NCBI GenBank assembly: GCA_949294555.1
Contig: CASFHP010000003.1
Span: 59,473 to 123,472, forward strand
Direction of reading: 5' to 3'
Length of the DNA stretch: 64,000 nt
DNA from: an uncultured Eubacteriales bacterium
Lineage (GTDB): Bacteria; Bacillota; Clostridia; TANB77; CAG-508
Positions 5,853-48,131 of this stretch are shown here, in pieces; the first letter of the stretch is position 1, and the number at the start of each line of letters is the position of its first letter. The notes below the pieces were generated by a model, which was given only the letters and a program-made list of their open reading frames with translations, had not been told where the DNA came from and did not search any database. Position numbers and translations under genes: made by a program.

Positions 5853-6866
5853 ATGAGTAAAGTTTTAAAAGCCTTATTTGTTATTATAGGAACATTAGTG
5901 GGTGCGGGATTTGCATCTGGGCAAGAAATTTATATTTTTTTCTATCAATATGGAATAAATGGAATTGCTGGAATTGTTGTTTCTAGTATTTTGTTAGCAG
6001 TTGTAATATATAAAGTTTTAAATATTAGTCAGAAAGAGAAAGTGGAAAATTACAAAGCATTTTTAAATGGGTTTATAAAAAATGAAAAATGTTTAGAAGT
6101 TTTTAATACAGTAATTAATCTATTTATTTTAATTACTTTTTATATTATGATTGCTGGATTTGGAGCGTATTTTGAGCAAGAATTTAAAATAAATGGATTA
6201 ATTGGCAGTTGTTTATTGGCAGTTATTTGCTATGTCGTTTTTTTACGAGATGTTTCAGGATTAATTAAGGTAAATCAGTGGATTGTTCCTATATTGATTG
6301 GCAGTTTGCTTTTCATTGGGATGTCTATTATTGATGTAAAGGACATCTTTCAAATGCAGTATTATTTACCACAAAATCAAAGTAGAAAATGGTTATTAGA
6401 TGGTATTTTATATGGGAGTTATAATACGATTTTGCTAATTCCTGTTTTAATTGCACTAAGAAATCTTGTAACGAATAAAAATAAACAAATTGTTGTTTCT
6501 ATTTTTACAGGCATTTTGGTAATTATTTTATCACTAATTATATCTTTTATGCTGATGAAAGTAGATGTACCTATTGAAAATTTGGAAATGCCAGCAGTAT
6601 ACGTTGCTTCTAAAATTTCAATCGTATTTGAATATATTTATGGGTTCATCATCTTAAGTTCTATATTAACAACAAGTGTATCCTTAGGAACGAGTTTTTT
6701 AGAAAATGTAGCAAAGACAAAGAAAAGTTATAAGCAATTTGCATTTTTGATTTGTGTAAGTTCTGTCATTGTTTCAAATATTGGATTTTCAAATTTGGTG
6801 AATTTGTTATATCCGATATTTGGCTATATTGGTCTTGTACAAATTGTTGCGATTTTGAAGAGATAA
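5853..6866 (+). CDS. YkvI-family membrane protein (LeuT-fold-like permease)
   Basis: Integral membrane protein of 337 residues with about ten hydrophobic segments. It opens with KALFVIIGTLVGAGFASGQEI, the unwound-helix Gly-rich motif typical of YkvI and related amino-acid transporter-fold proteins. Family size and helix spacing fit. No substrate is established for YkvI proteins. The gene stands alone between two palindromic repeats; AAAGGA precedes its ATG. I am confident in the family and make no claim on substrate. Confidence 0.8.
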   Translation: MSKVLKALFVIIGTLVGAGFASGQEIYIFFYQYGINGIAGIVVSSILLAVVIYKVLNISQKEKVENYKAFLNGFIKNEKCLEVFNTVINLFILITFYIMIAGFGAYFEQEFKINGLIGSCLLAVICYVVFLRDVSGLIKVNQWIVPILIGSLLFIGMSIIDVKDIFQMQYYLPQNQSRKWLLDGILYGSYNTILLIPVLIALRNLVTNKNKQIVVSIFTGILVIILSLIISFMLMKVDVPIENLEMPAVYVASKISIVFEYIYGFIILSSILTTSVSLGTSFLENVAKTKKSYKQFAFLICVSSVIVSNIGFSNLVNLLYPIFGYIGLVQIVAILKR

Positions 6867-29602: not shown

Positions 29603-30391
29603 ATGAGATTATCAGATGTGTTATCAAAGAAACCTTCAAAAAACTATGTTCAAATAGACAGCTTTTTACAAAATAAAAAAGGGGTTCCCGGCCAAAGTGT
29701 AAAAATTTCAGTTGGCAATATTGCTTTAAATTATTATTGTCAAGAATGTGAGGATTTGAGAACGTTTTCTTCAAGAGATAAGTTAGAAGCAATTTTTGTT
29801 AATAAGAATACAATAAGTATTGATTGTGTTCTGTTATGTGCTGTATGTAGAAAAGCTATACCATTATGGTTCCTAATTGAAAGTAATAATGATATTACTG
29901 GACAAGCACCAAGAGTACGAATATTAAAGAAAAGTGAAAAAAATATACAAATAGAAGAAACAAATAATAATTATTACAATAAATATGTAGCATTACTAAA
30001 TAAGGCAGAACAAGCATTTAATGAGGATTTAGGAGCTGGTGCTATGGTGTATTTACGAAAAGTGTTTGAAAAAATAACTGTAGATTCTGCAAATGCAATA
30101 AATGTGGAATATGCTAAATATGAAAATGGAAATCCTAAAAATTTTTTTAATCTTCTAAAAAAAGTTGATGAAAGGTGTTCAATTATACCTAGAGAATTTT
30201 CAAGAGATGGATATAAATTATTTAGAGAGTTGAGTAATATAGTTCATGGAGAAAACAATGAAGAAGATGGAATAAAAAAATTTGAACCACTATACAGACT
30301 TGTGGTAGGAATTGTAGAAAACGTAAAAAATCATAAGGAAATAATGGAATCTTTGCAAAAATTGCAATGGAATGTATCTGGAGGTGAATAG
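29603..30391 (+). CDS. DUF4145-like (HEPN-fold) protein inside the hsd operon
   Basis: 262 residues. N-terminal zinc-ribbon-like pairs (YYCQEC and LLCAVC) precede a helical domain with DLGAGAMVYLRKVFEKI and RELSNIVHGENNEEDGI, as in DUF4145 proteins, a HEPN-related family often found near type I restriction genes. The canonical HEPN RNase motif R-x4-H is not exact here (R-x6-H), so nuclease activity is uncertain. It abuts hsdM and overlaps the hsdS ribosome site region, so it is cotranscribed and may modulate the complex or act as a toxin. Confidence 0.65.
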   Translation: MRLSDVLSKKPSKNYVQIDSFLQNKKGVPGQSVKISVGNIALNYYCQECEDLRTFSSRDKLEAIFVNKNTISIDCVLLCAVCRKAIPLWFLIESNNDITGQAPRVRILKKSEKNIQIEETNNNYYNKYVALLNKAEQAFNEDLGAGAMVYLRKVFEKITVDSANAINVEYAKYENGNPKNFFNLLKKVDERCSIIPREFSRDGYKLFRELSNIVHGENNEEDGIKKFEPLYRLVVGIVENVKNHKEIMESLQKLQWNVSGGE

Positions 30392-34743: not shown

Positions 34744-35601
34744 ATGAAAATAGAATATAAGTTGAATAAAAAAGGATTCTTAAAAGGAATAATTGATTTA
34801 AATCAGAAACAAATAGATAATTGTATTGATATATCAGAAATTAAATTTGCAGATATATTTGGTATTGTTTCAATGACATTATTATTAAAAAAGGAATTTA
34901 ATAATTGTAATAAAATGTCAGTCATAATGCCTCGTAATTTAGATGTATCAAATTATTTACATATATCAGGATTTGTTGATTACATTAAAAAATTTGCAAA
35001 TGTGAAATATAATGGATTAAATATAATTTCTAAATTACATAGCGTTCCTAATATTAGTGATGATAAAGAATATATACCACTTCAAGTAATTCATAATAAC
35101 GATGATGTTGAATTAATTATAGAAAAAATAATTTCATGGTTAAAAAACAAAAATATACCAGAAGACGAAATAAGTAAAATATTTACAGTATTAGTAGAAA
35201 TTTTTCAGAATGCTATAGATCACAGTAATAGTAGAGATGGATGCATATTTGCAATGCAAAAATATCAATCGGAATTGATGATTAGTATTGCAGATTTTGG
35301 AATAGGAATTAAAGAAGCATTAGCAAAAAACAAAAAATATGTAGGAGTTTTTAAAAATAATGAAGAGACTATGAAATATATTTTCACTGAAAAAAATTAT
35401 ATTAACAGTGAAGATGATAAATTTAGAGGAAATGGATTTTATTGTTTAAATAATTTATCGACAGAAAGAAAAATGAATTTCTTTATAATTTCAAGAGATG
35501 GATTTTATTCTTCTGAATATATAAGAGGTAAAAACCAAAGAGAAAGTATGAAAATTTATGATTTAGAAGGAACACATGTGAATTTTTGCATAAATTTATA
35601 A
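34744..35601 (+). CDS. STAS-like plus GHKL-ATPase (anti-sigma-kinase-like) protein
   Basis: 285 residues. Residues 1-115 have a STAS-like alternation (IDISEIKFADIFGIVSMTLLLKKEF). Residues about 130-285 are a GHKL ATPase: N box E152/N156/H160 in VEIFQNAIDH, G1 box DFGIG (184-188) and G2 box GNG (229-231). This resembles SpoIIAB/RsbT-type kinase domains. No close ribosome site precedes the ATG (AGAGGT lies about 20 bases away), so the start is uncertain. It follows hsdR after 25 bases and precedes a STAS-wHTH gene. A partner-switching sensor pair is the natural inference; no known system is recognised. Confidence 0.65.
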   Translation: MKIEYKLNKKGFLKGIIDLNQKQIDNCIDISEIKFADIFGIVSMTLLLKKEFNNCNKMSVIMPRNLDVSNYLHISGFVDYIKKFANVKYNGLNIISKLHSVPNISDDKEYIPLQVIHNNDDVELIIEKIISWLKNKNIPEDEISKIFTVLVEIFQNAIDHSNSRDGCIFAMQKYQSELMISIADFGIGIKEALAKNKKYVGVFKNNEETMKYIFTEKNYINSEDDKFRGNGFYCLNNLSTERKMNFFIISRDGFYSSEYIRGKNQRESMKIYDLEGTHVNFCINL

Positions 35602-35607
35602 AATATA

Positions 35608-35659
35608 TTGACAAATGGAAAAAATATTAGTATAATAATCTCGTAAACAAAATGAGATT
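35608..35659 (+). promoter_or_regulatory. Perfect promoter with inverted repeat at the start site
   Basis: TTGACA (35608-35613), 17-base spacer, TATAAT (35631-35636), then AATCTC-N11-GAGATT (35637-35659), a likely operator for the winged-helix protein encoded next. Confidence 0.75.
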
Positions 35660-35681
35660 TACCAGAAAGGGAGTAAATTTT

Positions 35682-36224
35682 ATGTTTATAATAAATTTAT
35701 ATGAATTAACTAACAAAAATCTAATTTGGGGACATGAAAATGCTAGAAATTATAGAAATATAATTTTAAAAAAATGGAATGAATCTATGGATGATGTTTT
35801 AGTTATAGACTTTAAACAAATTACAATGATTGATTTTTCAGCGGCTAGTGATTTGATTTGTATTCCAATTTCAAGATTACAAGCTGATTTAATAGGAAAA
35901 CATATTATTATTAGTAATGCAGAAAATGAAGTTAGAGAAAATATTGATGTAGCATTAGATAGACAAGAATTATTCTGTATAAATTTATTAGAACAGGATA
36001 CTTATGAAATACTTGGTAAATGTAGTAATGGTTTAAAAGACATATTTAAAGTGCTATATGAAAAGAAAAAAGCAGATTCAAGAACATTAGCAGATATATT
36101 AAATACTACTGTTCAAGTCATTAATAATAGGACAACAACTTTATATAAACTGGGGTTGTTAAAAAGAAGAATGGAAGATGCACCAACAGGAGGAAAGCAA
36201 TATATTTATGAAAGTATAATATAG
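35682..36224 (+). CDS. STAS-domain protein with C-terminal winged helix
   Basis: 180 residues. Residues 1-105 look like a STAS domain: VLVIDFKQITMIDFSAASDL carries the loop where SpoIIAA-type antagonists are phosphorylated (Ser53 candidate). Residues 115-180 form a winged helix (KADSRTLADILNTTVQVINNRTTTLYKLGLLKRR). ATG 35682 has AGAAAGGGAG upstream. It would be the phosphorylatable, DNA-binding partner of the GHKL protein encoded just before. Own strong promoter and operator imply autoregulation. The domain combination is not one I know from a named defence system. Confidence 0.65.
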   Translation: MFIINLYELTNKNLIWGHENARNYRNIILKKWNESMDDVLVIDFKQITMIDFSAASDLICIPISRLQADLIGKHIIISNAENEVRENIDVALDRQELFCINLLEQDTYEILGKCSNGLKDIFKVLYEKKKADSRTLADILNTTVQVINNRTTTLYKLGLLKRRMEDAPTGGKQYIYESII

Positions 36225-36272: not shown

Positions 36273-36360
36273 TAATTAGAAAAGGTTTATTTTACTCCGT
36301 TAAAAGTTATAATAAACCATCGATTGATATAATTCTAACATTTATCGGATAAAATGTAAA

Positions 36361-36398
36361 GACCTTTTCTAAAATTTTTTAAGAAGGAGGTCTTTTTG
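36361..36398 (+). promoter_or_regulatory. Attenuator-like hairpin hiding the leader ribosome site
   Basis: GACCTTTTCT pairs with AGAAGGAGGTC (small internal loop) and TTTTTG follows. The 3' arm contains AGGAGG for the leader ORF, so folding would both hide that site and resemble a terminator. ATCGATTGAT at 36320-36329 can pair with ATCAATCGAT in the leader ORF, offering an alternative fold. Confidence 0.5.
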
Positions 36399-36399
36399 T

Positions 36400-36441
36400 A
36401 TGCCTAAATCAATCGATGAAAAAATAACAGAAAAGAGGTAA
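36400..36441 (+). CDS. 13-residue leader peptide
   Basis: ATG-initiated 14-codon ORF, peptide MPKSIDEKITEKR, with AAGGAGG ten bases upstream inside the attenuator hairpin. Its last codons contain the AAGAGGT ribosome site of the ubiquitin-like gene that starts five bases after its stop, so translational coupling is likely. Confidence 0.45.
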   Translation: MPKSIDEKITEKR

Positions 36442-36446
36442 TAAAA

Positions 36447-36704
36447 ATGTTAGAAGAAAAAAATAAACATAAAATCACCATTTACATTAATGGTGAAGAA
36501 AAAGAGGTAGTAAAGGATAAAATTTCATATGAGGAAGTTATAAAATTAGCTTTTGGACATTATGAAAATAGTGAAACTGTAATTTATACTGTAATTTATT
36601 TTAAAGGAAATAATGATAAACCTAATGGTTTTTTACTAAAAGGACAAGTAGTTATGGTTAAGAAGGGGATGAGAATAAATGTCACAAGAACTAATAAATC
36701 ATAG
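36447..36704 (+). CDS. Single-domain ubiquitin-like protein (Multi_ubiq type)
   Basis: 85 residues matching one unit of the multiubiquitin family: ITIYINGEEKEVVKDKISYEEVIKLAF, then VIYTVIYFKGN, GFLLKGQVVMVKKGMRINVTRTNKS. Family members usually carry several tandem copies; here there is only one. No C-terminal Gly-Gly or Cys is present; the chain ends Lys-Ser. It overlaps the E1-like gene by 26 bases, so translation is coupled. In known operons this family travels with E1/E2-like enzymes and is thought to be conjugated or thiolated; the target is unknown. Confidence 0.8.
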   Translation: MLEEKNKHKITIYINGEEKEVVKDKISYEEVIKLAFGHYENSETVIYTVIYFKGNNDKPNGFLLKGQVVMVKKGMRINVTRTNKS

Positions 36705-37839
36705 TGATGACTTAAAAAAACTTCAGAATGAAGGATATGAAATAGATGTAAAAAGTGGATATGGAATTGTTTCCCATATTCCATACTTGAAAGCAAATGG
36801 AGAAATAGATTATGGTACATTAGTGTCAAAAATTGCGTTTGAAGGTGATAAGGCTAAATATAATGGAGACCATGTTATATATTTTTCAGGAGATCAACCT
36901 TGTAATGCAGATGGTACAGAAATCACTCAAATAAAGCATAGTGTTAGCAATTCAATTTTAGCTGGAATAAATGTAAAACGTTCGTTTTCAAATAAACCAG
37001 ATAAAAATTATAAAGACTATTATGAAAAATTTGTGAATTATATAAACATAATTTCTTCTAGAGCCATAGATAAAGATAATACAGTAACGGCAACAACATT
37101 TAAAAAAGTGGTAACAGAAGAAGATTCGGTATTTCAATATGTAGATACTAATTCTTCAAGGGCCGGAATTGATAATTGCAATAAAAAAATATTAGATAAA
37201 AAAATAGCAATTATTGGACTTGGAGGAACTGGAACATATATACTTGATTTAGTATCAAAAACTAATGTCAAAGAAATACATTTGATTGATGGAGATGTAT
37301 TTTGTCAGCATAATGCTTTTAGAAGTCCAGGAGCAGCAAGTAAAGAAATATTTACAAAAAGTTTATCAAAAGTAAGCTACTTTAAAGAAATTTATCAAAA
37401 TATGCATAAGAATATAATAGAGAATGACATATTTATTAATGAAGAAAATGTCAATATATTAAAAGATATGGATTTTGTATTTATAAGCATTGATTCAGGA
37501 ATAGCAAGGAATTTAATAGTAGATTACCTTGTGTCAGAAAAAATACCATTTATAGATACTGGAATAGGATTACAAAATATAAATGATACTATAAATGGAC
37601 TGATAAGAACTACTGTGTTTGACAAAAATAATTATGATAGAATTTCTACATATATTGATTTTGACGAGGATGGAGATGATGTATATAATACAAATATTCA
37701 AATTGCAGAATGCAATGCTCTAAATGCAACAATAGCTGTTATTGAGTGGAAAAAATATTTTAATATATACGAAAATGCTAATAGTAAATGTCAAAATGTT
37801 TATTCAATAGAAATGGGAGAAATAGTACATGAAGATTAA
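36679..37839 (+). CDS. ThiF/E1-like adenylyltransferase with N-terminal E2-like/DUF6791 region
   Basis: 386 residues. Residues about 1-150 match the region fused to E1 in multiubiquitin operons (HVIYFSGDQPCNADG with Cys75, then FSNKPDKNYKDYYEKFVNYINII); an E2-like role with Cys75 as thiol carrier is possible. Residues 172-380 are a ThiF/E1 Rossmann domain: GLGGTGT at 180-186, acidic DGD 204-206, and a candidate catalytic Cys345 in AECNALNA. It would adenylate the C-terminus of the ubiquitin-like protein. AAGGGGATG precedes the start; the next gene overlaps by 11 bases. Confidence 0.85.
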   Translation: MSQELINHSDDLKKLQNEGYEIDVKSGYGIVSHIPYLKANGEIDYGTLVSKIAFEGDKAKYNGDHVIYFSGDQPCNADGTEITQIKHSVSNSILAGINVKRSFSNKPDKNYKDYYEKFVNYINIISSRAIDKDNTVTATTFKKVVTEEDSVFQYVDTNSSRAGIDNCNKKILDKKIAIIGLGGTGTYILDLVSKTNVKEIHLIDGDVFCQHNAFRSPGAASKEIFTKSLSKVSYFKEIYQNMHKNIIENDIFINEENVNILKDMDFVFISIDSGIARNLIVDYLVSEKIPFIDTGIGLQNINDTINGLIRTTVFDKNNYDRISTYIDFDEDGDDVYNTNIQIAECNALNATIAVIEWKKYFNIYENANSKCQNVYSIEMGEIVHED

Positions 37840-38176
37840 TAAATTTAAAGTTGAATTTGTTGATAAAGTTCCTTTAAACTTAAAGAATGGTATATTGTAT
37901 GTGTGTCTTAGCTGCAATGTTATTGTGCATAGATGTGCATGTGGATGTGGTGAAAAAACTGTAACACCAATAGATAAAAAATATGGATGGATAATGAAAT
38001 ATGATGGACAATCTATTACACTTAGACCATCAATAGGAAACTTTAATATACCATGTAGGTCACATTATTATATAACAGATAATAATGTTGAATGGTTAGA
38101 AAACTATCAACAAAAAAATAATAAAAAATGTATATTTGAACGAATTAGGCAATTATTTAAGAGAAGAATAACATAG
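37829..38176 (+). CDS. DUF6527 metal-binding protein
   Basis: 115 residues. RCACGCGEKTVTPI (Cys36, 38, 40) and PSIGNFNIPCRSHYYI (Cys76, His79), with an additional Cys26/Cys29 pair, give the family's probable zinc site. DUF6527 is repeatedly found with multiubiquitin and ThiF genes; its activity (possibly a deconjugase or ligase-like factor) is unknown. The start overlaps the E1 gene. A terminator follows, closing a three-gene operon. Confidence 0.85.
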   Translation: MKINKFKVEFVDKVPLNLKNGILYVCLSCNVIVHRCACGCGEKTVTPIDKKYGWIMKYDGQSITLRPSIGNFNIPCRSHYYITDNNVEWLENYQQKNNKKCIFERIRQLFKRRIT

Positions 38177-38221: not shown

Positions 38222-38587
38222 TTGTATAAGGTATTTAATTTACTAAGTGTATTTATAAGACAATTTTGCCTATCCAATCCATATGCAATGTATTTCGAAA
38301 CAAGTGTATATGCAGATATTTTTAATATAATTATTGGAGGAACCATATTACATTTGCTTTCTTTTTTTCTAACGTCAAGTACTTATGAAAAAGAAAAATA
38401 TCCAAGTTGGTTAGGATGTACATTATATTGTATAAATTATATTTTTAATACTGCTTTAATTAGTTTTTTATGTTATAATTTTAATAAACTAAATTTAACT
38501 TATATTATATCAATATCTTTTATAATTAACTTAATAATATGGATATTAATTGAAATTTTAAAGAAAAGAGTATATAGTATAATATAA
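38222..38587 (+). CDS. Small membrane protein, unknown function
   Basis: 121 residues with three to four hydrophobic segments (FNIIIGGTILHLLSFFL, LYCINYIFNTALISFLC, ISISFIINLIIWILIEIL). TTG start with AAAGGAGG seven bases upstream. No family recognised. It stands directly behind the ubiquitin-like operon and before a phosphoesterase. It could be a membrane effector or an immunity-type protein; this is speculation from context. A SNPYAMYF segment near its N-terminus recalls NNPYALYF in the membrane protein at 41528. Confidence 0.6.
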   Translation: MYKVFNLLSVFIRQFCLSNPYAMYFETSVYADIFNIIIGGTILHLLSFFLTSSTYEKEKYPSWLGCTLYCINYIFNTALISFLCYNFNKLNLTYIISISFIINLIIWILIEILKKRVYSII

Positions 38588-39591: not shown

Positions 39592-39611
39592 ATATAAGAG
39601 AGGTGAGCGAA

Positions 39612-40892
39612 ATGCTAGTTGAATTTAGTGTAAAAAATTTCATGTCATTTAAAGATAAAGTGACCTTTAGTATGGAAGCAGCAACAGGAACAGAAAATGA
39701 AGAAAACATTATAAACATACCAAATATAAGTGAAAGAATTTTAAAGAGCACAGCAATATATGGAGCTAATGCATCAGGAAAAACAAATTTAATAAAAGCA
39801 TTTACAGCTGCAATATTAATGGTAAGAAAATCCAATAATAGACAAGTGGGAGAAAAATTAATGGAAATGGAACCATTTGCCTTTGATGAAAAAACTAAAG
39901 TAGAACCATGTGAATTTGAATTTGTTTTTTACGCAAAAGGCATGAAATATATATATGGATTTATAGCAGATAAAGAGAAAGTCTATGAAGAATATTTATA
40001 CCAGTACTTTACAGCAAAGCCAACAAGAATATTTGAAAGAACTAATGTAAATGAATATAAATTCTTACAGGCAGATGAAGGAAAATTAAATGCTATAAAA
40101 ACACAAAATATAGACAACAAATTGTTTTTAGCTACAGCAACAACATGGAATTATGATAAAACAAAAGAGCCATATTTGTGGTTTGCAAAAAATATAGACA
40201 CATATTCTGGAGGAATGATATTAAATGATTTTGTGGTAGAGTCATATAGCAAAGATGAAGGAGAAGAATTAAAGAAATTCACATTAAAATTATTAAACGA
40301 AGCAGACATTGTAATAAAAGATTTTAGTGTAGAAATTGAAGAACGTGATGTAGATAGTAATATGCTAATGTTATTAAAGAATTTTAATATTCCTTCACCA
40401 ATGTTACCACAAAAACAAAGAGATGTAAAAATAAGAATGACACATGAAGTTACTAATGATGAAGGAAATATGAAAAACTATGAATTAAATTTAAACAATG
40501 AATCTTCAGGAACACAAATTCTATTTTCATTTGCTCCAATACTAAAAGATGTTTTTGAAAATGGAAAAATATTAGTAATAGATGAAATAGAAAGAAGTTT
40601 GCATCCTAGTTTAGTAGAAATGATTATTAAATTTTTCCATAATCCAAAGATAAATAAAGGTAATGCACAGCTAATATTCAATACTCATGATACAAACTTA
40701 TTATCTTTAGATATATTTAGAAGAGACCAAATATGGTTTGCAGAAAAAGATCCAAAGAAAGGGGCTACTGATTTATATCCTCTTGATGACTTTTCAGTTA
40801 GAAAAAATGAGAATATCCAAAAGGGGTATTTAAATGGAAGATATGGAGCGATTCCTTTTGTGGCTACAGGTGATAGCTTATGGGAAGATTAG
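39612..40892 (+). CDS. AAA-family ATPase of an AbiL/RloA-type defence pair
   Basis: 426 residues, OLD/SMC-like single-chain ATPase. EFSVKNFMSFKDKVTFSMEA opens the fold, Walker A is IYGANASGKTNLIKAF, the signature lies near NNESSGTQILF, Walker B is ILVIDEIERSLHP, and switch NTHDTNLL. This is the AAA_15/AAA_21 type used by RloA, AbiLi and PARIS AriA. Its partner, overlapping by 13 bases, is RloB-like, which points to AbiL/RloAB. ATG 39612 follows GAGAGGTGA. Confidence 0.85.
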   Translation: MLVEFSVKNFMSFKDKVTFSMEAATGTENEENIINIPNISERILKSTAIYGANASGKTNLIKAFTAAILMVRKSNNRQVGEKLMEMEPFAFDEKTKVEPCEFEFVFYAKGMKYIYGFIADKEKVYEEYLYQYFTAKPTRIFERTNVNEYKFLQADEGKLNAIKTQNIDNKLFLATATTWNYDKTKEPYLWFAKNIDTYSGGMILNDFVVESYSKDEGEELKKFTLKLLNEADIVIKDFSVEIEERDVDSNMLMLLKNFNIPSPMLPQKQRDVKIRMTHEVTNDEGNMKNYELNLNNESSGTQILFSFAPILKDVFENGKILVIDEIERSLHPSLVEMIIKFFHNPKINKGNAQLIFNTHDTNLLSLDIFRRDQIWFAEKDPKKGATDLYPLDDFSVRKNENIQKGYLNGRYGAIPFVATGDSLWED

Positions 40893-41509
40893 AAGGTTTT
40901 AAACAAAGAGGAAGAAATCGACAGAATAGAAAGAGAAGACCTATTATTGTAATAGGTTGTGAAGGAAATAATAAAACAGAAGAAATTTACTTTAAAAACT
41001 ACAATAGTAGAAAATGTATTATAAAGTTTTCTACAGGAAATAGCACAGATCCAGTTGGAATTGTTAATGATTTAATAAAATTTACAGATAATGAAATTGG
41101 AAGAGAAAATGATGATAAATATTATGTTGTTTTAGATACGGATGTAAACCAAGATAAACAAAGTCAAATTGATAAAGCAAAGAAGTTAGCTATAGATAAT
41201 GGAGTTGAATTTATAACTTCAACTCCAACATTTGAATATTGGTATAGACTACATTTCGGATATACAACAAAGACATATAATTCAAGTGAAGAAGTTCAAA
41301 ATGATATAAAAGATAAAATAAAAGGCTATACAAAAAGTATGAATACATATCCTGTTTTAAGAAATAAAACAGACATTGCTATAAAAAATGCTAAAAAGGT
41401 TGAAAAGCATCATTTAGATTTAGGACAAGCTTTAGATAACGAAACTTGTAATCCTTATACAGCAGCATATAAAGTTGTAGAAGAATTAATCAGAAGAAAT
41501 AAAAATTAA
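40880..41509 (+). CDS. rloB: RloB-family protein (AbiLii-like effector)
   Basis: 209 residues. KRRPIIVIGCEGNNKTEEIYFKNY, then YYVVLDTDVNQDK and TPTFEYWYRLHFG are the conserved blocks of the RloB/TOPRIM-like family, with acidic residues placed as in a TOPRIM nuclease. It overlaps the ATPase gene, so the two are made together. RloB and AbiLii partners are known from abortive infection and tRNA-targeting defence; the exact target is not shown here. Confidence 0.85.
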   Translation: MGRLEGFKQRGRNRQNRKRRPIIVIGCEGNNKTEEIYFKNYNSRKCIIKFSTGNSTDPVGIVNDLIKFTDNEIGRENDDKYYVVLDTDVNQDKQSQIDKAKKLAIDNGVEFITSTPTFEYWYRLHFGYTTKTYNSSEEVQNDIKDKIKGYTKSMNTYPVLRNKTDIAIKNAKKVEKHHLDLGQALDNETCNPYTAAYKVVEELIRRNKN

Positions 41510-43702: not shown

Positions 43703-43764
43703 GTTATTATAAAATGAATAAAATATGCAATAATTCATATAATAATAACAAAGGGGTGATAAAT

Positions 43765-44409
43765 ATGAATTATAGTGAAATAGTATTAGAATATATAAAT
43801 AAATGTAATTTAGATGATCCAATTTTTATAGAAGATATAAAAAAATATATAAAAGATATTTATAGTAAAAATGAGAAAAAAGTTTTTAAAAACATAAATG
43901 TAATTTTAAATAGAATGTGCAAAAAAAACATAATAAAACAATTCTATAAGGGAATTTATTATAAACCAACTAGAAATATTTTTGGTGAAATGCCACTTGA
44001 TAAAAATAAAGTTATTGTAAAAAAATATATTAAAGATGAACATGGAAATATAAAAGGATATATAACAGGAGCAAAATTATTTAATCAGTTAGGACTTACT
44101 ACCCAAGTTCCTAATATAATTAATATTATAACAAATGAATGTAAAAATTATAATGAATATAAAAATGAAAAATTAGGGGTTGTAATTAAACAACCAAAAA
44201 GTAAGATAAACAACGAAAACTATAAATACTTACAATTATTTGATATTATTAATAATAAAGATCATATTAATATTGAAGTTGAAAATGTTGATGAGATAAT
44301 TTACAAGTTTATAAAAGAAAATAATTTAGATTTTGAAAAAATTATAAAATATGCAAGAGAAACAAAGAATAAAAAAATATTGGAAAAACTATATGTTCTT
44401 GCAAGATAG
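43765..44409 (+). CDS. AbiEi/DUF6088-type antitoxin
   Basis: 214 residues. The N-terminal winged helix (FIEDIKKYIKDIYSKNEKKVFKNINVILNRMCKKNIIKQFYKGIYYKP) and the following IKGYITGAKLFNQLGLTTQVPNIINIITNEC match DUF6088/AbiEi antitoxins. ATG 43765 has AAAGGGGTGAT upstream, and a strong promoter 63 bases upstream would leave the earlier in-frame ATG (43714) almost leaderless, so I reject that start. It is followed by the AbiEii gene after nine bases, the standard antitoxin-first order; AbiEi proteins repress their own promoter. Confidence 0.82.
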   Translation: MNYSEIVLEYINKCNLDDPIFIEDIKKYIKDIYSKNEKKVFKNINVILNRMCKKNIIKQFYKGIYYKPTRNIFGEMPLDKNKVIVKKYIKDEHGNIKGYITGAKLFNQLGLTTQVPNIINIITNECKNYNEYKNEKLGVVIKQPKSKINNENYKYLQLFDIINNKDHINIEVENVDEIIYKFIKENNLDFEKIIKYARETKNKKILEKLYVLAR

Positions 44410-44418
44410 GATTGAATA

Positions 44419-45372
44419 ATGAATTTACATTTAAATAAAGAAACCTTTAAACAGTTTATAAATAAGATAAGTAGTGAAACAAATATTGGAACAGATATAT
44501 TAGAAAAAGATTATTATGTATGTTGCATATTAAATGAATTAGCTATGAAACAAGACGAGCTTCAAGCATATTTTAAAGGTGGAACAGCAATATATAAAAT
44601 ATTAGAAACAATGAATAGATTTTCTGAAGATATAGATTTAACTGTAAAAGTTAAAGAAGGACTTAGTAATAGTCAAAAGAAAAAAACATTTGAAAAAACG
44701 GATTTTGATTATCATATAGAAGGATTAAGGTTAAATAAAGAAAAAAACATTAAAAACGGAAGAAGTGAAGTTGCTTTTTATGATTATGATTCAGTTTTTA
44801 CGATTGATACGGAACCACTACAACGAGCAGGAGAAATTCAAGTTGAGTCAACATCCTTTACAGTTAGTGAACCAGTTGAAGATGCTGTTATAGAACCTAT
44901 AATTTATAAATATGCAAGTGAGGCTGAAAAAGAAATATTAAAAAATAATTTTTCAGTAAAAGAAATAAAAATAAAGATTATTAAATTAGAAAGAATGTTT
45001 ATTGATAAAATTTTCGCAGCGGAATTTTATTATACTAGGAAAGAATATAAAGATACTGCCAAACATATCTATGATATAAGTATTTTACTTTCTAATGACA
45101 AAATAAAAAAATTATTAATAAATGATAATGAAATAAGAAAACTAGTTGGATATAAACGATTAGAGGAAGAATTAAGAACAGAAGGGGTTAGTAAAGATAT
45201 AAAAATAAGAGACTTTTCATATTTAGAATGTAAATTTGACAAAGATTTTATTGAAAATTTCAATAGTATGCAAAATAAATATATAACGAATGAAAAATAC
45301 AAATTAGAAATAGAAGAGGTTAAAGAAAAACTAAAATTCATAAAAAATAAGTTTATAATTTTAGACATGTAA
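44419..45372 (+). CDS. AbiEii-type nucleotidyltransferase toxin
   Basis: 317 residues. The nucleotidyltransferase core has AYFKGGTAIYKIL (GG/S motif near residue 54) and FSEDIDLTV (D-x-D), as in the AbiEii/AbiGii toxin family, whose members modify tRNA or other targets with NTPs. The D-x-D pair and later KLERMFIDKIFA Lys-containing block are intact. It forms a type IV toxin-antitoxin pair with the upstream gene. It lies outside the tRNA-fMet element, in the accessory block to its right. Confidence 0.88.
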   Translation: MNLHLNKETFKQFINKISSETNIGTDILEKDYYVCCILNELAMKQDELQAYFKGGTAIYKILETMNRFSEDIDLTVKVKEGLSNSQKKKTFEKTDFDYHIEGLRLNKEKNIKNGRSEVAFYDYDSVFTIDTEPLQRAGEIQVESTSFTVSEPVEDAVIEPIIYKYASEAEKEILKNNFSVKEIKIKIIKLERMFIDKIFAAEFYYTRKEYKDTAKHIYDISILLSNDKIKKLLINDNEIRKLVGYKRLEEELRTEGVSKDIKIRDFSYLECKFDKDFIENFNSMQNKYITNEKYKLEIEEVKEKLKFIKNKFIILDM

Positions 45373-45603
45373 TGGAAAATAACATAGATAATCCATAAAA
45401 TTTTTATCGAGTTTATCTAATTGTTTTCTTAACATATTCATGTTATTATTGCACAAAACAATTTTTTGTGATAGAATGATGAAAAACAATAGAAATAACA
45501 GATTACTTAGGAAAAAAGGCTGAAAAAAATATAATTTTGGCATAGCCAAAATTTAATACTTTTCCAGCCAAATTTGTGCCTTGAGAAAGGATTGACTTAC
45601 TAT

Positions 45604-46860
45604 ATGGAAAAAAAATATGATGAAAGAAACAAAGTAAACTATTTAGACGGGAAAAGTTGGATAAGAACAGCAATTAATTTTTGGGAAATAGAAAACATTG
45701 AAAATCTAGAAAAAAAGATGATAGAATTTGTATATAAAAAAAGAGTTTCTGGAGAAGTTTTCTCTAATCTAACAAAAGAAAACAAACCAGAAGATATAGA
45801 ATATGATGCAACAATATTCAAAGTAAATAGTATAGAAGAGATAAAAAATGCAACAAAAAAAATAGTAAATAGTGGATACAATTCTTATCATTACTTCGTA
45901 TTAAATAATATTATAGAAAACAATATATTGTTATCAAAATATATCGTAGATATATGCCATTTAAATGGATTAGAATATAGAGGAAGAATAATTGTATATT
46001 TAAAAAATGAAAATACATATGTAACATTACAGTTATTTTTAAATAGAATAGAAGAAAAAAATTTCAAAGACATAAAAAGTATAAAAAAATATGAAATATT
46101 GTATAACCAAAAAGAGGAGCATTTTATTTATAGTAAATCCAAAATAGACAAGATTGGTTTAAAACACCCAGCTCCATTTAGTTATAATGATATAGAAGAA
46201 CTTTGTAATCTCGAGAATATCGAGAATTCAACTATATTAGATCCATTTTTAGGAATTGGTTCTACTATTATAGGGACATACACGAAAAATAATTATACAA
46301 TAGGAATCGAATTAAATAAAGAATATGTAGATTTAATCCTAGAAAGATTCAAGTTGTTAGAGTTGACTGACAAGACAGAAGGAAGATATGAAATTATCAA
46401 TGGTGATTCATTAAAAGAAGTAAAAAAGATAAAGCATAAAGTAGAATATGTTATTACTTCGCCACCATATTGTAATATATTAAAAAATGAAAATAAAGGA
46501 GTACGCCATGATAATACGCAAACTAGACAGGGCGTAGAATTTTATAGTAATAGTAACGAAGACATTGGAAATATTGATGATTATGACGAATATATAAAAA
46601 CGATGAAAAAACTATTTAAAGATATAAAAACCAAGATGAGTCCAGGAGGAAAAGTATATATCGTTATTAGCGATTTTACGGTAGATAAAAAAGAAAAAGA
46701 TGTACATTCAGATGTTATAAAATTCATGTGTGAAGATGGATTTTGCTATAATGGTACTTCTTATTTTATACAAAATCAGAAATCAATTTATCCATTTGGA
46801 TATCCATATAAAATCGTTTTAAATCATATTTTTCAATATGTTATGTGTTTTGAGGTGTGA
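45604..46860 (+). CDS. DNA methyltransferase, TSPPY type (M1 of the restriction operon)
   Basis: 418 residues from ATG 45604 (GAGAAAGGA ten bases upstream; the longer frame begins at an unsupported TTG). SAM motif I is DPFLGIGSTIIGTY and the catalytic motif TSPPYCNIL, the latter typical of N4-cytosine enzymes although some N6-adenine enzymes share it. About 200 residues before motif I are not recognised. Stop overlaps the next start. First gene of a four-gene operon with tight spacing and overlaps. Confidence 0.85.
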   Translation: MEKKYDERNKVNYLDGKSWIRTAINFWEIENIENLEKKMIEFVYKKRVSGEVFSNLTKENKPEDIEYDATIFKVNSIEEIKNATKKIVNSGYNSYHYFVLNNIIENNILLSKYIVDICHLNGLEYRGRIIVYLKNENTYVTLQLFLNRIEEKNFKDIKSIKKYEILYNQKEEHFIYSKSKIDKIGLKHPAPFSYNDIEELCNLENIENSTILDPFLGIGSTIIGTYTKNNYTIGIELNKEYVDLILERFKLLELTDKTEGRYEIINGDSLKEVKKIKHKVEYVITSPPYCNILKNENKGVRHDNTQTRQGVEFYSNSNEDIGNIDDYDEYIKTMKKLFKDIKTKMSPGGKVYIVISDFTVDKKEKDVHSDVIKFMCEDGFCYNGTSYFIQNQKSIYPFGYPYKIVLNHIFQYVMCFEV

Positions 46861-46862
46861 AA

Positions 46863-48131
46863 GTGAAAGAAAAAGAAACAAAAGTATATAAAGAAAGAAA
46901 GAAAAAAGCTCAATTTTTTACGCCCACACAGTTAGTTGATAGGATTTTGCAAGAAGCAGAAATTCCTTTTGAAAATAAAACAATTTTGGAACCTTCATGT
47001 GGTGATGGTGTTTTCATTGAGCAACTAATAGAAAATAATGAAATTTATGCAATAGATAAAGATAAGAACAAGACAAAAGCAATTAAAGAAAAATATCAAA
47101 CTGCAAAAGTAATTACAAAAGATTTCTTACAATATAATCCTAAAATAAAATTTGATGTGGTTATTGGAAATCCACCATTTAATTTACCAACAGATCAAAA
47201 ATATGTTGATACAACAGAAGGATTTGTAAGTCATGCAATTGACCTTTTAAAAGATGATGGATATTTAATTTTTATTTTGCCAAATACTGTTTTAAGAAAC
47301 AAAAAGTATCAAAATTTAAGGAAAAAAATCATTGAGAATACACAAATTTATAAAATAATCGATACTAGAAAAAATGATTTTTTAGGGGCAGATATTGAAA
47401 CAATCGCATTATTTTTAAAAAAAGGACAAGTAGATGTACAAAGATATCAATATAAAAGTAAAAACATTGATAGAATGGTTACATTAACGCGAAATGCAAG
47501 GGATACAATAAAAATAAATAATGACACAATTTCCAATGAAATTGTCAATATGATTGGTACAAGTAGATTGTCAGAAATATTTGATATTTATAGAGGAACT
47601 TCTAATTTAGAACAGTCATTAAGAGGAAAAAACATAAATTTTTATAATGATACAATTTTAACCCAAGGGGATAAGTATTATATCGGATTGCAAAATATAG
47701 CCTATAGATTAGTGGCCAATGTGATAAGGGGAGATGATAAAGAAATTTCGGATACAATTACAATATTAAAGCCAAAAGAAAATATGACTTATGAACAGCT
47801 TTGCTACATAGCAAATTTTTTAGATACCCCAATTGCCAATTATATGATACATGTAAATGCATTAAATGATTCAAAATTAACGATTCATATTGACAAATAT
47901 TATATTGAAGATATATGTATTCCCAACATCCAACAAATAGATGAACAGGAAATCAATACGCTAATTGAAAATTTAGAACCGTTAAGGAATGATAGACAAT
48001 TTGCAGAAGTAAGAAATGAATTTTTTTATGAGAATTATGGTATAAATGGAGAATTAAGAAAAGAAATCGAAACAATGTGGCAATTTCCAAAATATAAGAA
48101 AAAAAGGATGGAAATCGTGTATGGAATATAA
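46863..48131 (+). CDS. N6-adenine DNA methyltransferase (M2 of the restriction operon)
   Basis: About 422 residues. AQFFTPTQLVDRIL leads into SAM motif I ILEPSCGDGVFIEQL and catalytic NPPF in VIGNPPFNLPT, so a gamma-type N6-adenine enzyme of the Eco57I/TaqI group, followed by a target-recognition half. I favour the GTG at 46863, seven bases after TGAGG; a GTG two codons earlier (46857) is too close to it. Two methyltransferases for one system suggest an asymmetric target or one enzyme per strand. Confidence 0.88.
   Translation: MKEKETKVYKERKKKAQFFTPTQLVDRILQEAEIPFENKTILEPSCGDGVFIEQLIENNEIYAIDKDKNKTKAIKEKYQTAKVITKDFLQYNPKIKFDVVIGNPPFNLPTDQKYVDTTEGFVSHAIDLLKDDGYLIFILPNTVLRNKKYQNLRKKIIENTQIYKIIDTRKNDFLGADIETIALFLKKGQVDVQRYQYKSKNIDRMVTLTRNARDTIKINNDTISNEIVNMIGTSRLSEIFDIYRGTSNLEQSLRGKNINFYNDTILTQGDKYYIGLQNIAYRLVANVIRGDDKEISDTITILKPKENMTYEQLCYIANFLDTPIANYMIHVNALNDSKLTIHIDKYYIEDICIPNIQQIDEQEINTLIENLEPLRNDRQFAEVRNEFFYENYGINGELRKEIETMWQFPKYKKKRMEIVYGI

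Follow-up and report, generated by a model that had tools for sequence, protein, structure and literature searches.

A three-gene ubiquitin-like operon of the DUF6791 branch, a relative of the Bub operons with a serine-ended modifier and a fixed gene overlap

The DNA analyzed here, called the window, is a 64,000-nucleotide (nt) stretch of contig CASFHP010000003.1 (positions 59,473 to 123,472; assembly GCA_949294555.1) from an uncultured Eubacteriales bacterium of the gut, and it carries an operon of three overlapping, codirectional genes encoding a ubiquitin-like protein (Ubl), an activating enzyme (E1) fused to an N-terminal DUF6791 domain, and a DUF6527 protein. On the strength of its sequence, the operon is real and intact and belongs to an already known kind. 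In our view, it is probably, if by no means certainly, a DNA-damage-inducible protein-modification operon of the Bub and Iyer type 6e kind, in a JAB-free branch defined by DUF6791. In this branch, the register in which the Ubl and E1 genes overlap is identical in 99 of the 99 testable loci, and the Ubl that overlaps the E1 ends in Ser in 99/99. The features on which the argument depends are the following.

36447 to 36704, plus strand: Ubl gene (Multi_ubiq, one domain; Pfam PF14452, 6.5e-12), 85 amino acids (aa), C terminus ...VTRTNKS.
36679 to 36704, plus strand: 26-nt overlap encoding, in two frames, the Ubl tail VTRTNKS with its stop and E1 residues 1 to 8.
36679 to 37839, plus strand: DUF6791-ThiF fusion gene, 386 aa, comprising an N-terminal domain with Cys75 and an E1 adenylation domain.
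36901 to 36903, plus strand: codon of Cys75, which lies 10 residues past the invariant His65 and is a candidate nucleophile of the E2 type.
37684 to 37686, plus strand: codon of Tyr336, candidate for a catalytic residue other than cysteine, in an E1 loop modeled with low confidence.
37829 to 38176, plus strand: DUF6527 gene, 115 aa, probable metal site (Pfam, 4.5e-22).

A first-pass annotation made from the letters alone had described overlapping genes for a one-domain Multi_ubiq protein, a ThiF/E1 with an N-terminal extension and a DUF6527 protein, and the coordinates and Pfam matches bear this out as a whole. All four domains lie above the curated cutoffs, including DUF6791 (1.1e-51) and ThiF (1e-15), and the failure to match Multi_ubiq, ThiF, or DUF6527, which had been named as a refutation, did not occur. 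The motifs listed are also present, namely GLGGTGT (residues 180 to 186), Cys75, Cys345, CACGC, and PCRSH, but the start given for the operon, 36361, falls in the leader outside any gene, the first gene beginning at 36447. The E1 and DUF6527 genes overlap by 11 nt, and the fusion protein belongs to the NCBIfam group hypothetical PRK06153 (1.6e-142).

Relatives were collected by a genome scan that yielded at least 582 coding relatives among at least 597 pattern matches; the best 80 were used, so that the set leans to close kin. With seven plasmid loci, two genome loci from the same family, and the window, they form a set of 90 loci, which loci L093 to L095 and L097 to L103 extend to 100 E1s (97 distinct sequences). 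L096, a partial match, was excluded, the nearly identical L002 is uncounted beside the window, and the tail and overlap set comprises 99 loci, the contig of L093 beginning at the E1. The loci of this last set come from many phyla. Within the window's family, 4 of 195 genomes encode DUF6791, the window's own among them; in a class sample, 1 of 391 genomes does so, again its own, and 114 of 72,556 plasmid records matched. Carriage by phages found no support, with 0 of 50,697 phage records and 4/35 pattern matches in IMG/VR, one of which (L096) matched at 24% over part of the E1; the IMG/VR contig L094 has the full triad. A DUF6527-like open reading frame (ORF) follows the Ubl-E1 pair in 86/90 loci, window included, so the grouping of the triad is not due to chance; the four others are L053, with only 346 nt left past the E1, and L075, L083, and L089, which were unmatched by the motif.

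In the 90-locus set, the Ubl stop codon ends 26 nt inside the E1 gene in every case (87 automatically, and L034, L040, and L012 after a longer spurious ORF was discarded), and over the 99 loci the overlap is 26 nt in 95 and 41 nt in 4 (L097 to L100), where the E1 begins five codons earlier with the register unchanged. The E1/DUF6527 junction, by contrast, is variable, with 20 distinct values among 85 loci; the starts there were chosen by rule, and the annotated plasmid loci L006 to L012 also vary, from 4 to 32 nt. E1 codon 8 reads CNT in 90/90 loci, giving His in 38, Arg in 35, Leu in 16, and Pro in 1 but always Ser in the Ubl frame. Among 72 loci below 80% identity, the mean entropy of the overlapping E1 codons 3 to 8 is 0.58, 0.93, and 0.57 bits at codon positions one, two, and three, versus 0.98, 0.74, and 1.69 bits for 355 later E1 codons. 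In the Ubl frame, too, it is the third codon position of the overlap that varies most, as is usual for coding, which indicates that selection bears mainly on the Ubl tail; by this measure, the Ubl frame is more constrained than the E1 frame. Common ancestry accounts for the origin of the overlap, and it is its retention that constitutes the finding. Our literature search, which did not reach the key Bub papers, showed no paper on the Ubl/E1 overlap among those listed, so the fixed register looks newly noticed rather than established as unreported. A register kept in 99/99 loci together with a stronger constraint on the modifier frame is unusual and gives an independent indication that the encoded end of the Ubl is the one in use.

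The single ubiquitin unit and the Lys-Ser end without Gly-Gly, both of which the first-pass annotation had found odd, were correctly observed and prove to be ordinary in this branch. Counted by length from the first ATG in 89 loci (window included; L030, where the contig cuts the Ubl, was dropped), the Ubl has one domain in 42, two in 15, and three in 32, and this number changes at least 20 times on the tree. The Ser end is the rule for the Ubls that overlap the E1, a point that is new as far as we could check, and its invariance argues against the trimming of the tail that had been envisaged. The window Ubl aligns with residues 146 to 222, the last 77, of PDB entry 9cd2 ("ZDHYS365 multi-ubiquitin domain protein"), to both C-terminal ends (5.1e-12); this 222-residue protein also ends in Lys-Ser, whereas the window Ubl has one domain. 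The frequency of triple-domain Ubls raises the idea that the Ubl works mainly by assembly or scaffolding under E1 control and not by tagging targets, and filament-forming triple-domain Ubls are said to have been described by Gong et al. in 2025. We hold this very improbable here, as the window Ubl has one domain and no tandem array and neither the E1 residues nor the Ser tail vary.

The AlphaFold2 model of the DUF6791-ThiF protein (predicted local distance difference test [pLDDT], 87.9) has BubCD structures as its best Foldseek matches (E value, 1.3e-13), followed by UBA5. Gly180, Gly182, Gly183, Gly185, Asp206, Arg215, Lys231, Asp272, and Arg310 are invariant in 100/100 E1s, and we take this glycine loop and these charged residues to play the roles they have in E1 enzymes. 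The model also matches ThiF, MccB, and PaaA, which, together with a C-terminal Ser unlike that of ubiquitin and an operon devoid of an E3 or a validated deconjugase, would accommodate an E1 that adenylates the Ubl for a sulfur carrier function or for small-molecule or peptide modification, with no protein conjugation. Such an activity strikes us as unlikely given that BubCD and UBA5 are the nearest structural matches, that the context is one of defense and DNA damage, and that no rhodanese or biosynthetic domain was found among 18 window proteins scanned.

With its Multi_ubiq protein, its E1 with an N-terminal fusion, and its DUF6527-type protein, the operon corresponds to type 6e among the polyUbl operons classified by Iyer et al. 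2006 and is related to the Bub operons. According to the former work (PMC1779556), type 6e operons likewise contain one to three Ubl repeats, an E1 with an N-terminal fusion, and a small metal-binding protein; some E1s have an uncharacterized domain where others have JAB, and a solo Ubl occurs in one species. A JAB-like role was suggested there for the replacing domain, both variants being classed as type 6e, and our literature search found no test of this role. We infer that their domain X, for which the passage gives no Pfam name, is DUF6791. The metal motif is printed there as C-x3-C-x35-38-H-x2-C, whereas the window has C-x3-C-x35-C-x2-H, and the type 6e section and table row contain no word on the overlap or on the Ser end.

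The Citrobacter Bub operon resembles the window in its Multi_ubiq, E1, and DUF6527 proteins and in its upstream capK and capS, the full order of the Citrobacter type being capK, capS, Multi_ubiq fused to Prok-E2_E, JAB-ThiF, and DUF6527. Profile matches link the window E1 to JAB-type E1s (E value, 4.9e-16) and the window DUF6527 to that of Citrobacter (2.4e-12). The Citrobacter system has a JAB-E1 fusion and the E2-like BubB, whereas in the window DUF6791 replaces JAB and a stop codon sets the Ser end. Indeed, Pfam gave no JAB match in the window E1 and Prok-JAB in 6/6 JAB-type comparators (over the cutoff in 4); none of ten neighboring window proteins scanned matched BubB (Prok-E2_E), CD-NTase, or JAB. 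The comparators are what remains of seven loci fetched from 161 plasmid records with an E1 of this type after the archaeal L109 was set aside; this Halanaeroarchaeum plasmid encodes a ThiF-type archaeal E1 whose N-terminal stretch looks JAB-like by eye, preceded by two unnamed small genes. In the comparators, the Ubl ends in a free Gly (L107) or a free Gly-Arg (L110) or is fused to an E2-like domain with a Gly at the presumed junction (NNG in L104 and L105, TDG in L106, TEG in L108), and the BubA(155-229) construct found in the PDB would end at the junction Gly in L104 numbering. Proteolysis may therefore free a Gly end in the JAB type, whereas DUF6791-type operons would encode their Ser end without JAB, a contrast that, as far as we could check, is new. 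By comparison, the PADLOC E1-E2 models of Cap2 (CBASS) and Bil match mainly the ThiF part of the window protein (best, 1e-10), the E2 part being unmatched. The first-pass annotation called the biochemistry of such operons largely unknown; this no longer applies to the JAB-type relative, for which structures have been deposited and PMC13373217 cites two Bub papers.

Two genes in front of the operon resemble the CapK-CapS regulatory pair.

34744 to 35601, plus strand: CapK-like GHKL kinase gene, 285 aa, HATPase matches below the cutoff.
35652 to 36224, plus strand: CapS-like repressor gene of the STAS-winged helix-turn-helix (wHTH) type, with a conserved phospho-acceptor Ser.

The order of a GHKL kinase and a STAS-wHTH protein with the conserved Ser is that of a CapK-CapS pair, and the phospho-acceptor column holds Ser in 5/5 CapS proteins. 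BLASTP gives weak matches between the CapK-like protein and the protein in the CapK position of the Citrobacter braakii locus L104 (1e-06) and between the CapS-like protein and WP_001567865.1 of the same locus (5e-07), the latter being the CapS studied in PMC13373217. In that paper, the kinase and the STAS-wHTH repressor stand, as in the window, behind a restriction-modification (R-M) system and before a Ubl operon; capKS precedes 231 Bub operons, and 88 of 443 capKS pairs have an R-M system directly before them. The paper also describes induction by DNA damage and names CapKS, CapHP (CapP-type), and WYL regulators as controlling Bub operons under such damage. In the window, the system upstream is of type I (HsdM, HsdS, and HsdR by Pfam). 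Ten queries recognized CapP-type regulators in 30 of the 90 loci, CapK plus CapS in 4, WYL in 2, and CapS alone in 1, counts that are lower bounds and include matches anywhere within the upstream ORFs, not necessarily adjacent. Among close relatives, the same cassette follows a CapKS pair in L002 and a helix-turn-helix (HTH) protein with an IrrE-type peptidase in L003 and L005 (Pfam in L003: Peptidase_M78, 5.7e-07; HTH_19, 1.3e-06, just below the cutoff). According to PMC4963859, 70% of Multi_ubiq proteins adjoin DUF955 genes, taken there for toxin-antitoxin loci. The exchange of CapKS, CapHP, and WYL before one cassette supports the view that such operons are induced by stress or phages.

Our current working hypothesis is that, as shown in homologues, DNA damage would activate the CapK-like kinase, phosphorylation of the CapS-like repressor would follow, and transcription would be released. 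The Ubl would be made already mature and Ser ended, its end fixed by the overlap with the E1 gene; the ThiF domain, judging from the invariant E1 residues, would adenylate the carboxylate of the C-terminal Ser; and, in what is the weakest step, the activated Ubl may pass to a nucleophile on the same polypeptide, mostly Cys75 or a Tyr336-aided site, and then to a target amine. The DUF6527 metal-type protein could, as a guess, be a target adaptor or a deconjugase, and the operon likely serves phage defense or a stress response. We favor this hypothesis because of the domains present, the structural match to BubCD, the profile match to JAB-type E1s, and the shared DUF6527; because of the CapK/CapS homology in its published arrangement, the regulator exchange, and the type I R-M and AbiLi/AbiLii-like neighbors; and because of the invariant E1 residues, the Ser terminus, the fixed overlap register, and the constraint on the Ubl frame. 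The interpretation of the first-pass annotation receives partial support: a Ubl and E1 conjugation-type operon is supported, and it lies in a defense neighborhood, but the oddness claims and Cys345 are not supported.

Several observations weigh against the hypothesis. The CapK-like protein has 285 aa versus 368 aa in L104, with no HTH match and without the N-terminal HTH, the deletion of which from CapK had no visible effect in PMC13373217. Matches to the published TTAA palindromes number 3 and 13 across the window, but neither the stretch between capK and capS nor the Ubl leader contains one, and no regulator was recognized in 53 of the 90 loci. L097 has no DUF6527 annotated after the E1, and L094 has a second, free Ubl gene (6522 to 6749, minus strand) just after the triad that does not overlap and ends in ...LTNNA, without a terminal Ser. 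Searches of the accessible literature found no conjugate, adenylation, or phage test of the DUF6791 branch, and PMC13373217 states that protection against phage had not been demonstrated for Bub operons. Comparison of DUF6791 with the profile of the E2-like BubB is not significant (probability, 0.5%). Finally, Cys75, which the first-pass annotation had rightly located as a candidate E2-like Cys, is weakened as a nucleophile: column 75 holds Cys in 93/100 E1s, His in 4 (L018 and L098 to L100), and Tyr in 3 (L015, L017, and L051), with at least four changes on the tree, and the window E1 shares 82% identity with that of L015. This repeated loss is new as far as we could check.

DUF6791 thus lacks the strictly conserved catalytic Cys expected of an E2 fold, and its assignment as an E2 by profile found no support, no E2 enzyme being matched at that level. 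In E2 enzymes, the spacing between His and the catalytic Cys resembles His65-x9-Cys75, and this spacing and the strand order in the whole-protein model are at most suggestive of an E2; any E2-like character of DUF6791 is itself conjectural. His65, Pro74, Ser104, Tyr111, and Tyr121 are present in 100/100 E1s. Cys345, listed earlier as a candidate, is rejected as the E1 cysteine, since the column holds Cys in 6/100 and Leu in 91.

These counts bring forward conjugation without cysteine, in which the E1 would use the loop residue Tyr336, through an oxyester or general catalysis, with Cys75 as an accessory, a possibility that we regard as less likely than not. Tyr336 is kept in 99/100 E1s, the exception, L102, having a Tyr one column off, and column 270 is the sole other column besides 75 in which Cys is frequent (41/57). 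The PDB title "BubCD(D104A/Y370F)-BubB-BubA(155-229)" contains a Y370F mutant that hints at the use of a Tyr in the JAB type, and, assuming author numbering, residues 104 and 370 of L104 are an invariant Asp and Tyr in 6/6 JAB-type E1s. One hhalign run places Tyr336 opposite Tyr370, but neither a second run nor any of three MAFFT modes pairs these residues, and the PDB chain index is shifted by 2 relative to L104, so that by this index position 370 is Arg. The loop (residues 333 to 337, pLDDT under 50) is shorter in the window E1, and the correspondence is therefore positional only.

The loci without Cys75 retain the Ser tail and the overlap register. One may go further than a variant of Bub conjugation and regard the DUF6791 branch as a separate chemistry, in which the E1/E2-like enzyme would be cysteine independent, Cys75 being replaceable by Tyr or His while Tyr336 is kept, and in which the unprocessed Ser end would make a JAB protease unneeded, because the stop codon, locked by the overprinted E1 start, would set the mature end; we consider this doubtful as a whole.

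In the DUF6527 protein, His34, Cys36, Cys38, Cys40, Cys76, Ser78, and His79 are invariant in 55/55 sequences, and it is probably a zinc protein. Its model (pLDDT, 91.9) has no match in the PDB at an E value of ≤0.001, and no function can therefore be drawn from the fold. Ser78 as a catalytic residue was weakened by comparison with the JAB type, where the position, located by eye, is Ser in L104 and Cys in L107 and L110.

The remaining features near the operon are as follows.

35608 to 35636, plus strand: sigma-70 consensus promoter in front of capS, 12 of 12 positions, spacer of 17.
36276 to 36372, plus strand: long imperfect hairpin in the Ubl leader, 97 nt, with 11-nt perfect arms.
38222 to 38587, plus strand: small membrane-type ORF with a TTG start directly after the DUF6527 gene, possible clade-specific fourth gene.

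The region has 4 promoter-like matches against a shuffle mean of 6.9, the single perfect one being that before capS. The folding energy of the segment from 36274 to 36374 is -25.6 kcal/mol, whereas mononucleotide shuffles average -9.9 (standard deviation, 2.6), and the hairpin is kept in L002, L003, L005, L013, L014, and L015, with either regulator type. As a known RNA it was rejected, 0 of 8 listed Rfam matches reaching the gathering score, and likewise as a multicopy element, its own genome having one place (plus its reverse complement). A 13-codon ORF preceded by an AGGAGG site lies just upstream of the Ubl gene (36400 to 36441) and is identical in L002. The small membrane-type ORF is kept only in the window's close clade (L002, L003, L005, and L013 to L015). 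Amid the R-M genes, the gene at 29603 to 30391 has no Pfam match at 0.001. Downstream lie a metallophosphoesterase gene and AbiLi/AbiLii-like genes, the latter an adjoining pair at 39603 to 41509 (an AAA_21 ATPase and an RloB-like protein), and a DUF6088 protein gene with two DNA methylase genes (43714 to 48131) extends the defense island.

Together, our results set a JAB-free, Ser-ended branch, that of the DUF6791 operons, beside the structurally studied Bub enzymes, and the terminal Ser, Cys75, and Tyr336 offer direct handles on how such an E1 works. Should the overprinted stop codon indeed set the mature end of the modifier, the overlap would make the modifier tail and its activating enzyme one evolving unit that crosses phyla while exchanging its DNA-damage regulator and its number of ubiquitin domains.

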